64,000 nt of DNA from the NCBI GenBank assembly GCA_014238945.1, contig JABAAB010000046.1:1-64000 (forward strand), in the 5' to 3' direction. The first letter of the stretch is position 1; every line of letters begins with the position of its first letter. This document shows positions 52,026 through 56,628 of the stretch, piece after piece. The notes below the pieces were generated by a model. The model ran no database searches. It saw only the letters and a list, made by a program, of their open reading frames with translations, and was not told where the DNA came from. This stretch comes from Lysobacterales bacterium. GTDB taxonomy: Bacteria; Pseudomonadota; Gammaproteobacteria; Xanthomonadales; SZUA-36. The translations under genes and the position numbers were made by a program.

Positions 52026-52288
52026 GCATCGGCAAATCAATCTGAAATTGCTTGTAATAATCTTTCCTACTTATCGGTCTATAGCTTCGATACGGTTTTT
52101 TCCTAGATAAACATCAGCCTTATTGCTAGTCTCTAGGTATGGCCCGATGAAATATTGCCTCCTGAGGCCATGCCAAAGGAGACCAGTAGAAACTCTTTAC
52201 GGGTTGTAATTAGAGACGCTGAGGCGTTGTAATTGATACCCCCGTGCTATTTTTGTCGGGAATTTTGTAACTGTGGAGGTTATTCCTA
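52026..52288 (+). promoter_or_regulatory. Leader and promoter region of the hvf operon
   Basis: A 263-bp space between nth and hvfA. It holds a long hairpin (52126-52186), two copies of GTTGTAATT at 52203-52211 and 52226-52234, and a further TGTAAC at 52266-52271. A GGAGG sits nine bases before the hvfA ATG. No standard sigma-70 promoter pair was recognised. Clusters of this type are often driven by ECF sigma factors, so the TGTAA-type repeats are candidates for such an element, but this is inference. Confidence 0.45.
52126..52186 (+). repeat. Long imperfect hairpin upstream of hvfA
   Basis: GTCTCT-A-GGTATGGCC (52129-52144) pairs with GGCCATGCC-AAA-GGAGAC (52166-52183): 9 plus 6 base pairs with two G-U wobbles, and CT/AG can extend the base. 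The 21-nt loop contains a second small inverted repeat CCTCCTGAGG. No T-run follows, so it is not an intrinsic terminator. A structured 5' leader is the best reading. Confidence 0.6.
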
Positions 52289-52654
52289 ATGGCTAATAAG
52301 TTAATGATCGTCAAACCTGTTGCTGCTGCCGTCGGCGTAGCATTTGTTTCATCTTTGTTCATCTCTTCCAGTGTGGTTGCAGATGATAATCCTTTCTCAA
52401 CTGCTGACCTGGACTCCGGTTACATGCTGGCTGACGACAAGGGCGAAGAAGGCAAATGTGGCGAAGGCAAATGTGGCGGCGATAAGGGCGAAGAAGGCTC
52501 TTGCGGTGAGAAAGGCGAAGAAGGCTCTTGCGGCGAGAAAGGCGAAGAAGGCTCTTGCGGCGAGAAAGGCGAAGAAGGCTCTTGCGGCGAAAAGGGCGAA
52601 GAAGGCTCTTGTGGCGAGAAGGGCGAAGAAGGCTCTTGTGGCGGTAATGCCTGA
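52289..52654 (+). CDS. hvfA: HvfA-type Cys-rich repeat RiPP precursor (copper-associated)
   Basis: A 121-residue protein with a Sec-type signal peptide (VAFVSSLFISSSVVA, cleavage before DDNPF). The mature start NPFSTADLDSGYMLAD is typical of HvfA-type precursors. The low-complexity region has eight Cys: two EGKCG units, then six EEGSCG units separated by EKG. Known family: Cys of EGKCG are converted by the adjacent HvfB/HvfC to modified residues that bind copper. The swap to EGSCG in most units is unusual. GGAGG precedes the ATG by nine bases; hvfB follows after 9 bp. Confidence 0.9.
   Translation: MANKLMIVKPVAAAVGVAFVSSLFISSSVVADDNPFSTADLDSGYMLADDKGEEGKCGEGKCGGDKGEEGSCGEKGEEGSCGEKGEEGSCGEKGEEGSCGEKGEEGSCGEKGEEGSCGGNA
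52484..52645 (+). repeat. 27-bp tandem repeat inside hvfA (six units)
   Basis: Units begin at 52484, 52511, 52538, 52565, 52592 and 52619, each encoding KGEEGSCGE, the last diverging at its end to SCGGNA. Units differ only at a few third positions (GGT/GGC, GAG/GAA, AAA/AAG, TGC/TGT), which points to recent expansion or gene conversion. It is coding, in frame, and not a CRISPR. Confidence 0.95.
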
Positions 52655-52663
52655 GTTAAGCTA

Positions 52664-53542
52664 GTGAGTCACCGAGTACACCCCGTCACGGGTGCGGGAC
52701 TTGGTTTGAGGCGGGCCCTTCTGGGTCCGCTTCAGAATCAGGATCTCGAAATGATCGAGTTCATGGAGGTGGCTCCCGAAAACTGGATCAATGTGGGTGG
52801 TCAGCGGGCAAGGGATTTTGAGTATTTCACCGAGCGATTCCCGTTCGTCTGTCATGGGTTATCCCTGTCCGTTGGTGGTCCATCACCACTGGACCACACC
52901 TTCATACGCAAATTACGTCAGTTCATGGATCGGCATGGAATAAGGGCCTACAGCGAGCATCTGAGCTACTGTACAGATGACGGGCATCTCTATGACCTGA
53001 TGCCAATTCCCTTTACAGAAGAGGCCATCCATTATGTCGCCGGCCGTATCGGTCAGGTGCAGGATATGCTGGGACAACGTATGGCCATCGAAAATGTGTC
53101 TTATTACGCCGCCCCATCCGCCGAGCTTAGTGAAATAGATTTTATTAATGCGGTCATCACTGAAGCAGATTGTGACCTGTTGCTTGATGTCAACAACATT
53201 TATGTCAACAGTGTCAACCACGGCTACGATGCCATGGAATTCTTACGGGGTCTGCCATCAGAGCGAATTGCCTATGGGCACATTGCCGGACATGACAACG
53301 AAGCTGAAGACCTGATCGTTGATACACACGGTGCCAGTGTAATCCCCGACGTGTGGGAATTGCTGGACGCTGCCTACCGGTTTTTCGGTGTATTCCCTAC
53401 ACTACTGGAACGGGATTTCAACATCCTACCCGTAGAGAATCTGCTCACCGAAGTGCAGAAAATCAGGAACATTCAGAACAAATGGTGCCCGGAGCACCAA
53501 CTCCATGATGAGCAATCCAAAGTACGACCCCTCAGCGCCTGA
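52664..53542 (+). CDS. hvfB: DUF692 multinuclear non-haem iron oxidase (HvfB-type)
   Basis: A 292-residue TIM-barrel MNIO enzyme. Family landmarks in order: [93 protein letters not shown] and TLLERDFN; these hold the His/Asp/Glu ligands of the iron site. MNIOs in HvfA-type pathways oxidise Cys side chains of the precursor to make oxazolone/thioamide groups. Start is GTG at 52664, 9 bp after hvfA. It overlaps hvfC by 38 bp. Confidence 0.93.
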
Positions 53543-54293
53543 TACCCTGATTAAACTGCAGACCAGCTTTGCGGCTCATATACGGGATCCGGGCTCGGTA
53601 GCAGCACCCGAAGGTATTGAAGACCGGCGCATGGGTATTTACCGAAGGTTGTTTTTCAATAACGTCAGGAATTTCCTGTCGAATAATTTCCCGGTACTCA
53701 AAACCCTTTATGACGATGAGTCATGGGCAACCCTGTGTCGTGAGTTTTACAGGGAATTTAGATGTCATACACCACTGTTTCCGGAAATACCACGTGAGTT
53801 CCTGAAATACCTGCAGGATCACCGTAAAGATCATGTTGATGATTTGCCGTTCATGCTGGAACTGGCACATTACGAGTGGATTGAATTGGCACTGTCACTG
53901 GACGAGACCCGTGTTGAAGACATTGAAATCAATCCTGATGGGGACCTGTTGTCCGGCATACCTGTGCTTTCACCCGTGGCATGGCTCATCAGCTATCGAT
54001 TTCCTGTTCACAGGATACGGGTCGATTATCAACCCCAAAATGCACCTGAGAATCCCACCCACCTGCTGGCCTGGCGGCGTACGGACTACCAGGTGAAGTT
54101 CATGCAACTGAATGAGATTTCAACCCTGCTGCTGCAAGAAATGAAAGAAGATTCGAAGCGTACGGGTATTGAATTACTGACATCGATCGCCGGGATCATA
54201 AACCACCCGAATCCCGAAGTAGTTATACGGGGCGGTGCCGACCTGCTGGATGAACTGAAGAACAAACAGGTCATTCTGGGCACCCGTCTTTAA
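53505..54293 (+). CDS. hvfC: DUF2063 partner protein (HvfC-type)
   Basis: A 262-residue protein with the DUF2063 N-terminal putative DNA-binding-like domain: [41 protein letters not shown] and [23 protein letters not shown]. It is the obligate companion of DUF692 enzymes, probably presenting the precursor peptide to HvfB. Two adjacent ATGs begin the gene within the end of hvfB, indicating translational coupling. No DNA-binding role is implied. Confidence 0.92.
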
Positions 54294-54318
54294 AACGCAA
54301 CAAAAAGGCGCACTATCA

Positions 54319-54990
54319 ATGGCAGTAATCCACTCCTATGACCAAATATCATCCCGCTTAAGGACATCAGGAGACTATGTCTGGCCTACCGCGTTGCGAT
54401 TGATCATGTTCTGGGAATTCTGGGAATCCGGGGTGAAAAAATTGAACGGGAGTAACTGGTTTGCCGAGATTCCATGGGCCGACTGGCAGGCTGGGTTTCC
54501 ATTTCCATTTGACAGGATTTCCCAGGATCTGAACTGGTTTTTGGCTACCTGGAGTGAATTGGTTTTTGCCGTGATGCTGCTGCTGGGTCTTTTTACACGC
54601 CTGGCCGCATTTTCGCTGATCGTGGTCACGGCTGTAGCAACAGCCGCCGTACACTGGCCTGCCGACTGGAATAGCCTGTCGGAGCTGTGGAATGGCTACG
54701 TGATCACATCCAAGGGTGCCGGAAACTTCAAACTGCCCCTATTGTTCGTGGTCATGCTTTTACCACTGGTGTTCAACGGTGGCGGCAAGTTATCTGTGGA
54801 TTACCTGTTGATTGCATTGACCGGACGAAAAGACAGGCTCGAAGAACGCGTTGATGGTCTTCAATCAGCCGGGCTGGCCTTGCTGGTGTTGGGACTGGCG
54901 ACCATCTGGGTCGAACCCACCTGGGGATTCACCTTCCTTGGGGCCGCGGCTGTGGCCATGGTCATACCTGAATTCGTCAGCAGGCATTGA
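54319..54990 (+). CDS. hvfD: DoxX-family membrane protein (HvfD-type)
   Basis: A 223-residue inner-membrane protein with about four helices and a DoxX-like pattern: [46 protein letters not shown] and [28 protein letters not shown]. DoxX-type members regularly end hvfABCD or gig-type operons, but their job (electron supply, export or metal handling) is unknown. It follows hvfC by 25 bp and is the last gene of the cluster. Confidence 0.88.
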
Positions 54991-55031: not shown

Positions 55032-55985
55032 TTATTCGGGAGCAAATGGCAGGGGCAATGGTTTAAGTGTATATCCCTGAACACGGAGCAACTCAAGTAA
55101 ACCTTTTTCACCCGGCAGGTGCAGCGCACCCACGGCAACAAAAACCTGGCTGCTCCGAAGATGTGGCAACAGGGTGTCAAGCATACGGATATTGCGTGCA
55201 TTGATACCCAGTTCGACGAAATATTCATGCGCCTTGATCCCCACCGTACTGAACTCTTCATTGGACAGGGCCTGTAATCCGACCAGATCGTTTTCCAGGT
55301 ACGCTGCAACCATGCGATCATGTGCATCTGCAACCAGATCAAACCCTGCAATTGCCTGGTCCAACAGGTTCAATTGCAAGTCCATGGGCATGTCCTCCAG
55401 GAAGGACAGTTGTTGTTCCAGTGTTTCCAGTCCTACCACCTTCAGCCCACTACCGGTGGCGCGCAGCGAAAGCGACAAATCCATGAAGAAGCCTGTCTCA
55501 GGAGCTGGTGTGCTGAGCGTCATCATGGCCGCCCAGGGTTTCATCCTGTCGACAAAATCTTCTGGCACATGATAACCGGACAGGGCCGACATCAGCGCTT
55601 CAAAACGCCCGGGTCCGATGACCCCGGTAAGCGTTTTTCCAGGTGGAAAATGCATGTATTCGGCCAGACGCGCCAGGGTGGGTAAATCCGGCACCAACTC
55701 CATTGCAAACACCGTATTGCTATTGAGCATGGTCAGCAATTCTTCTGAAAAATCCAGTACCCGGGGGTCTTCACTGTGGATGGTGCCCAACAAAAATCCA
55801 GCGGGTGATCCTGCCTTCTCAATGGCCCAGAATATGGCTTGATCGGATTGTTGATCGAGTTTGACCGAAGCTGCATTGGACACCACTGGCGATAACATGA
55901 ACAGCAACAGGCAAAAAACCGGTGCCAACATCGTCGGTATCAATCTCAACACAACTGCTTTTTTACATGGTATTTTGTCACGCAT
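55032..55985 (-). CDS. TraB/GumN-family secreted protein
   Basis: With the ATG at 55983-55985 the product is 317 residues, with a signal peptide ([16 protein letters not shown]) and the TraB/GumN core: [23 protein letters not shown]-type [10 protein letters not shown] and [18 protein letters not shown] near the C-terminus. Relatives (Tiki/TraB) are proposed metalloproteases using the GTIH His and the GALHL His. Convergent with hvfD (41 bp apart) and divergent from rnt; no direct tie to hvf is shown. Confidence 0.87.
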
Positions 55986-56022
55986 TCCCTTATTCTCGCT
56001 GCCTTTATTGCCGGAATCCAAT

Positions 56023-56628
56023 ATGACACGTATTTCTGATCGATTCAGAGGATTTCTACCCGTTGTCATCGATGTCGAAACCGGCGGATTCAACTCAAGC
56101 ACCGATGCGATACTTGAGATTGCCGCCTGCATCATTTGCATGGACGATTTCGGCCGTCTCAAAATTGCCGATACCATCGCCGCAGAAATTGTGCCCTTCA
56201 AGGGTTCACGCATCGAACCAAGTTCACTGGAGTTTACAGGAATCGACCTGGATGATCCCCAACGCCAACCCATCAGTGAAAAAGAAGCATTGCGCAAGAT
56301 ATTTTTACCTGTCAGGCAGGAATTAAGGGCCACGGATTGTCAGCGCGCAATCCTGGTGGGTCACAACCCGTCTTTTGATCTGTCTTTTTTAAATGCTGCC
56401 ATCAAGCGAGTGGACTACAAGCGTAACCCAATGCACCCATTCAGCTCGTTTGATACCGCTACTCTGGGTGGGCTTGCCTTTGGCCAGACGGTGTTGGCAC
56501 GTGCTGTGCAGGCCGCCGGCATCGACTGGGATGAATCAGCAGCACATTCTGCGGAATACGATACGGTAAAAACAGCCGAGTTATTCTGCACTATTGTCAA
56601 TCGGTGGAAGATACTGACGGGTTTATAA
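56023..56628 (+). CDS. rnt: Ribonuclease T
   Basis: A 201-residue DEDDh exonuclease that trims tRNA CCA turnover ends and stable RNA 3' ends. Exo I is [20 protein letters not shown] (Asp and Glu about residues 18-20), Exo II is [13 protein letters not shown] and Exo III is [19 protein letters not shown] with the catalytic His. The ATG at 56023 matches the family; the upstream open frame belongs to the opposite gene's region. Convergent overlap of six bases with hyuB. Confidence 0.95.

Follow-up and report, generated by a model that had tools for sequence, protein, structure and literature searches.

Captophorins have been called one of the most populous classes of ribosomally synthesised and post-translationally modified peptides (RiPPs; PMC12668002), and the modification of the EGKCG-type class has been assigned as a 5-thiooxazole (PMC12668002, PMC13419390; for thiooxazole chemistry in relatives see also PMC12538549). 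We analysed a 64,000-nt stretch of a Lysobacterales bacterium contig (JABAAB010000046.1, positions 1 to 64,000; the window), in which four closely packed open reading frames (ORFs) on the forward strand at 52289-54990 form the operon hvfABCX. Judged by its sequence, the operon is an EGKCG-type captophorin/oxazolin system, a kind already known, and very probably makes a secreted thiooxazole copper peptide. To what is known it adds a Ser-rich precursor below the thresholds of current models, a tendency for Lys to precede Cys in paired motifs, and a conserved promoter-like site of the extracytoplasmic function (ECF) sigma type with a structured leader. The role of captophorins is still argued. 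In the window peptide a single natural substrate carries two kinds of motif, which bears on whether the maturase, a multinuclear non-heme iron-dependent oxidative enzyme (MNIO), needs a Lys dyad, while the upstream site offers a handle on the inducers of such operons outside pathogens.

The oxazolin genes hvfABCX of Haemophilus influenzae (PMC13419390) share with the window all four gene families, the signal peptide, the MNIO metal-site motifs, the partner with a RiPP recognition element (RRE) and the DoxX-like protein; their precursor carries three AEGKCGEGKCG motifs, whereas the window precursor has one EGKCGEGKCG dyad and six EGSCG units. The fontiphorin genes fonABC, which also specify a captophorin (PMC12668002), have in common the Arg-Arg and Asp-Phe signature of the Lys-Cys group, the DUF2063 partner and EGxCG repeats, but they lack a DoxX gene, and fontiphorin bears seven thiooxazoles at Lys-Cys motifs. 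The Buf_EGKCG/oxazolin family comprises about 2,000 proteins, mostly from Pseudomonadota, with the same gene set as the window (PMC12452194). The window precursor differs in its 9-residue units with one EGSCG each, and we do not adopt a beta-helix fold for it: a low-confidence single-sequence prediction (mean predicted local distance difference test score 42.5) gave the signal helix only, which is weak evidence either way.

Two further systems are relevant to control. The Neisseria sigma-E operon NMB2140-2145, with the gonophorin genes, shares DoxX, MNIO and DUF2063 with the window (PMC2893595, PMC3240639, PMC12668002), and its promoter (GTMAGBWTT, 12-13 nt, CGTCTAAH; PMC2893595) is near in geometry to the GTAATAATC-N12-CGGTCTA of the window; unlike the window operon, it contains a sigma factor and an anti-sigma factor. 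The sigma-F-controlled bufferins of Caulobacter share MNIO, DUF2063, DoxX and, if our reading of the window promoter is correct, ECF control (PMC3511200, PMC12452194). They differ in their DUF2282 precursor and their promoter, GTAACC-N16-CGAA, to which the window site is close in geometry (PMC3511200), and the window MNIO scores 254.6 bits against the bufferin maturase model NF050167 (BufB), under its cut-off of 310.

Four hvf genes and their likely product

Gene content, gene order, family membership, metal-site and specificity residues and precursor architecture can all be read directly from the locus. The hvfA-like gene (52289-52654, +) encodes a 121-aa precursor with a hydrophobic N-terminal segment that we read as a putative signal peptide, a NPFSTADLDSGYMLA leader and eight Cys, of which two lie in one leader-adjacent EGKCGEGKCG dyad and six in solitary EEGSCGEKG units (2 x EGKCG and 6 x EGSCG). 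These solitary units are encoded by a 27-bp tandem array at 52476-52643 (+; tandem repeat analysis: 6.2 copies, 94% matches), whose copy number, taken from a short-read assembly, could be misjudged. The ribosome-binding site GGAGG (52275-52279, +) precedes hvfA, and TGGAG is invariant in 15 aligned leaders. After a gap of 9 nt follows hvfB (52664-53542, +; 292 aa, GTG start), the DUF692 MNIO maturase, which overlaps by 38 nt with hvfC (53505-54293, +; 262 aa), the DUF2063 and RRE-type partner; 25 nt further on, hvfX (54319-54990, +) encodes a DoxX-like membrane protein of 223 aa.

An earlier note on this DNA, made without database searches, had described these ORFs as a secreted eight-Cys precursor, a DUF692 MNIO, a DUF2063 partner and a DoxX-like protein of an HvfABC-type cluster, and had called for searches with the three family models. 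PF05114, PF09836 and PF07681 all matched, and NCBIfam equivalog models recognise HvfB, HvfC and HvfX above cut-off, so that gene set and assignment both hold; the EGKCG units it ascribed to the precursor are there in two of the eight motifs, the other six being EGSCG. HvfB scores 341 bits with PF05114 (cut-off 25) and 435 bits with NF003818 (cut-off 360). It can be aligned with a solved MNIO structure from Histophilus (3BWW, E 4e-74); alignments to the DUF692 entry 8hci and to MbnB structures are weaker. HvfC matches PF09836 (92.9 bits) and PF22106 (89.6 bits), both over cut-off, as well as the HvfC/PME1 partner model NF050145 (305 bits, cut-off 142), and aligns to 3DEE (E 8e-16). For HvfX the scores are 64.6 bits with PF07681 and 127 bits with NF050144 (cut-off 80). 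One locus thus holds the MNIO, the PME1 partner and a Cys-rich precursor with the 5-mer Lys-Cys motif expected of captophorins, the motif occurring in two of eight units.

Conservation was counted over 111 HvfB proteins from 112 loci at 15 motif positions round the metal site. Twelve positions are invariant (H64, H99, E143, D175, N177, N178, H206, H210, D220, H222, E249, D251), two are conserved in 110 of 111 proteins, and the last has E in 102 proteins and D in nine. This bears out the full MNIO motif set reported earlier, and on alignment the DUF692 ligands are present in the window HvfB. Arg is found at R16 in 109 of the 111 proteins and at R17 likewise in 109; Phe is found at F252 in 104. 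These three residues correspond to Arg15, Arg16 and Phe250, named as residues of the Lys-Cys MNIO group, and D251 corresponds to Asp249, the proposed base (numbering of PMC12668002); the window HvfB therefore carries the Arg-Arg and Asp-Phe signature of that group. N177/N178, D220 and H222 of the window match, by motif, residues of H. influenzae HvfB whose replacement by Ala abolished activity (PMC13419390).

The locus is not a chance arrangement, since the order nth-hvfABCX recurs in 20/20 family loci, with rnf genes before nth in 19. Of 112 loci, 95 have a CG-repeat precursor 5' of hvfB (48/52 at genus-to-order level and 47/60 class places); an earlier pass gave 47/52 and left out one precursor broken by a run of N, which the final pass kept. 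Of 204 class genomes, 126 gave HvfB-family matches, in 68 over cut-off, and the 60 class places (58 genomes) were drawn from the HvfB matches listed over cut-off. HvfC matched in 56 of 61 genomes, our own included (54 over cut-off). By similarity to the window proteins, 20 order-level loci contained hvfB and hvfC in 20 cases, nth in 11, hvfX in nine and the TraB/GumN gene in one.

Thiooxazole chemistry, export, copper binding and role we infer from the characterised relatives, and for copper the caution of the earlier note is upheld. HvfA would be made in the cytoplasm, where the RRE domain of HvfC would dock its leader. HvfB-HvfC, with a mixed-valent diiron centre, would then oxidise Cys residues with the loss of four H each, and each oxidised Cys would be closed onto the preceding carbonyl to give a 5-thiooxazole. 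Exported via its signal peptide, the modified peptide would bind Cu(I) in the periplasm and buffer the cell against copper or against oxidative stress of the envelope; HvfX would be an accessory membrane factor.

Several observations weigh against this reading. Six of the eight Cys lie in EGSCG, which the excerpted papers on relatives do not list among the motifs tested, and the precursor falls under both NCBIfam HvfA cut-offs (10.6 bits against 95 for the equivalog NF050188; 18.2 against 19.5 for the family domain KCGExKCG_twice, NF050137). FonBC left a one-repeat FonA unmodified (PMC12668002), so solitary units may be poor substrates. In 17 of the 112 loci no CG-repeat precursor was found 5' of hvfB (four shorter-than-usual loci and 13 class-level ones), and hvfX was detected by similarity in only nine of the 20 order-level loci. 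Homologues in Microbulbifer went undetected under copper, and the authors were hesitant about a copper-protective role; set against induction by hypochlorous acid (HOCl) in H. influenzae, this leaves the physiological role less certain than the chemistry.

Promoter-like site and leader hairpins

About 200 nt ahead of hvfA (distance in the genus), two conserved elements at fixed spacing form the promoter-like site TGTAAT-N16-CGGTCT (52053-52080, +), as expected of an ECF-type promoter, and control of the window operon by an ECF sigma factor appears likely. Scored at >=10 of 12 matches and a spacer of exactly 16, with 20 shuffle rounds, the site occurs 5' of hvfA in 8/8 genus, 15/20 other family, 8/20 order and 6/47 class regions, with shuffle means of 0.05-0.35. 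The genus count holds by construction, the consensus having been drawn from the genus alignment after the family alignment had also been viewed, and some upstream regions may be off because precursor starts were set by a motif rule. Spacers of 14, 15, 17 and 18 each occurred in at most 2/95 upstream regions. Five of the 20 other-family regions lack the site; for one of these (G020) the region was truncated, and the genome-wide scan recovered the site. Simple scans gave one sigma-70 match (shuffles: 3.1) and five terminator matches (shuffles: 3.0), close to the level of chance. A variant, TGAAAG-N16-NGGTCT, was seen in 8/20 order-level upstream regions and suggests a shifted sigma specificity.

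The genome that holds the window contains three exact sites, against about 1.1 expected by arithmetic and none for the reversed pattern. It has 19 Sigma70_r4_2 matches; five distinct 10-of-12 sites, unplaced relative to genes, lie near sigma genes, none of them reaching 11 or 12 matches. Across 37 genomes, 50 sites were listed for the pattern and 12 for its reversal. Position or extended motif assigns about 16 of the 50 to hvf, which leaves some excess elsewhere. Sixteen non-hvf sites were viewed by eye, with no family searches made: four lie inside long ORFs, and no common theme emerged. On this evidence the site may serve a wider regulon. In one genus relative (G001, locus L171), an exact TGAAAT-N16-CGGTCT lies 29 nt before a gene for a thioredoxin-fold, peroxiredoxin-like protein (by eye). 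The window genome, whose sole MNIO match is the window hvfB, also contains an ECF-type sigma gene followed directly by an NrsF anti-sigma gene (G000:C35:41816-42603, L201), with GTAACC-N16-CGTA, which resembles the Caulobacter sigma-F promoter, upstream. We rejected this SigF/NrsF pair as the hvf regulator because the element before it is of the Caulobacter type and unlike the hvf site.

The resemblance of the window site to the Neisseria sigma-E consensus bears on what the operon responds to. The inducer could be oxidative or hypochlorite envelope stress and not copper as such, with thiooxazoles and thiols as redox buffers and HvfX acting in thiol or sulfur redox; we regard this as possible, if on the unlikely side. 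The four-gene operon of H. influenzae depends on the ECF factor RpoE2 and is induced by HOCl (PMC7907618), and the Neisseria operon and msrA/msrB stand under a common sigma-E promoter consensus (PMC2893595, PMC3240639). Relatives, however, are reported to bind copper, the sigma-F targets of Caulobacter respond to metal (PMC3511200), a paper title ties the Legionella GIG system to gold and copper, and the window HvfX contains no Cys.

Three hairpins were placed in the leader: H0 (AACTC...GGGTT; 52191-52205, +), assigned tentatively by eye from the genus alignment and folds; H1 (52215-52228, +), from a covariation test on family leaders; and H2 with a short T stretch (52240-52266, +), terminator-like and just 5' of the ribosome-binding site, from folds of the window and its genus relatives. 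For the H1 test, 15 of the 27 family leaders were selected by eye; three of these 15 do not fit the hairpin. In this set, 82.2% of cells were paired, against 37-56% when the hairpin was slid, 12 cells were changed on both sides, and the covariation score of 0.503 was reached by 0/500 shuffles; pairs changed on both sides (143/500) and pair types (119/500) were not above shuffles. As three of the five measures lie beyond every shuffle or almost every one, but the other two do not, H1 is a partly covarying hairpin. Folding energies of the 27 leaders were mildly below shuffles (mean z -1.17). Most genus members show the T-run of H2 clearly; in the window it is weak, and one genus member (G003) lacks it. 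H2 could serve as an attenuator.

An RNA model (R1) run over 48 sources recovered its own seven sequences, a left-out genus member (L034; E 0.00027) and one same-family locus at E 0.044, with further matches only at E 0.5 and 1.4. Rfam gave no match at the gathering threshold or up to E 5. Two other structures were set aside. A hairpin sequestering the Shine-Dalgarno sequence was found in 8/8 genus and 11/20 other family members, but shuffled tails gave 5.3 and 7.9, and the order (2/20) and class (5/47) counts were at shuffle level. In the antiterminator that RNAalifold drew for seven genus sequences, which pairs CGGG with CCCG, two of the four pairs each fail in one sequence, and H0 uses these bases as well.

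Hairpins and promoter-like site might instead be the rnf-nth terminator and chance sequence, with no regulatory part in hvf expression. A terminator after nth is indeed to be expected, and the restriction of a clear T-run to the genus, its absence in G003, the modest folding z and the choice of H1 leaders by eye all fit this account. Yet the spacer-16 site lies far above shuffles beyond the genus too, and only about ten bases separate the end of H2 from the ribosome-binding site, which leaves no room for a later promoter. We consider the account doubtful.

Residue before cysteine in paired and solitary motifs

The residue before Cys was compared in the precursors of the 95 loci (48 at genus-to-order level, including the window, and 47 at class level), a dyad being two motifs five residues apart; 91 precursors contain one. 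Of 491 dyad motifs, 423 have Lys before Cys and 35 have Ser; of 205 solitary motifs, 89 have Lys and 86 have Ser. Among genomes with both kinds, Lys is commoner in dyads in 35, equal in 24 and rarer in two. Residues were then shuffled within each genome in 2000 rounds. Observed counts exceeded the shuffled maximum in the order set (26 informative genomes: 104, mean 68.8, maximum 80), in our own genus (eight genomes: 22, mean 8.1, maximum 16) and in the order set without it (18 genomes: 82, mean 60.7, maximum 70); the class-level signal is weak (12 genomes: 33, mean 27.1, maximum 33). Since the genomes are related, hence not independent, and tandem copying inflates motif counts, we treat the pattern as a tendency only: the residue before Cys tends to follow context, Lys in pairs and often Ser in solitary motifs, most strongly in this order. 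Counter to it, Ser dyads occur in three genomes (G010, G054, G180), and 22 genomes (11 each in the order and class sets) have Lys throughout, in dyads and solitary motifs alike. Solitary Ser units number 2 to 12 per precursor in the eight genus members.

The tendency recalls the behaviour of FonBC, which modified a two-repeat FonA peptide and not a one-repeat one, and which, within a dyad, worked with Ala, Arg or Thr at the position preceding Cys, whereas Phe and Glu were not tolerated; Ser is not named among the variants in the excerpted text (PMC12668002). On this basis, only the N-terminal EGKCGEGKCG dyad of the window might become thiooxazoles, the EGSCG units keeping free thiols and serving as spacers, as thiol scavengers or as metal sites of lower affinity. 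Both the context counts with their order-set permutation and the inertness of the one-repeat peptide point this way. The tolerance of FonBC indicates that Ser need not block modification, however, and the all-Lys genomes, the Ser-containing dyads and the weak class-level signal also speak against such a division, which we judge improbable.

A fuller scheme would make the Lys EGKCG pairs the obligate entry and primary copper sites, with solitary EGSCG units modified after the dyad or left as thiols, and would add a dedicated ECF-type promoter and a structured leader whose terminator-like hairpin could attenuate. Taken as a whole, this combination seems unlikely.

With mostly EGSCG and only two EGKCG motifs, the precursor stays under the NCBIfam HvfA cut-offs and matches Pfam Collagen instead (32.5 bits, cut-off 27.2); automatic annotation could therefore overlook it or give it a wrong name. 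That it is in truth a secreted collagen-like or low-complexity protein merely beside MNIO genes, as the Pfam match could imply, we reject as highly implausible, for Cys stands in every repeat unit and a CG-repeat precursor precedes hvfB in 95/112 loci while inter-repeat spacers vary. A literature search did not find the word EGSCG, motif-listing supplements being outside its scope, and we do not claim the motif as unreported.

Two observations concern other precursors. One (L059 in genome G045) has five EGECG in dyads and five solitary EGSCG, with hvfB, hvfC and hvfX all in place; it is notable because FonBC handled Glu before Cys poorly, yet the operon is complete. Four order-level precursors (L052, L053, L061, L067) show, by eye, EF-hand-like segments between or after the CG repeats; EF-hand segments are described for a second type of Buf_EGKCG proteins (PMC12452194).

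Neighbouring genes

The rnf genes and nth, encoding endonuclease III, lie 5' of the operon. On its 3' side a TraB/PrgY/GumN-family gene (55032-56333, -; PF01963, 167.7 bits) converges with hvfX and is followed by an exonuclease-like gene, which we take to be RNase T. The TraB/GumN gene adjoins hvfX convergently in 19/20 family loci; it lies 3.6 kb away in L038, and a contig end cuts L050. We left it out as a fifth operon partner, given its convergent orientation and its single occurrence among the order-level loci; it is a possible functional neighbour of hvfX.
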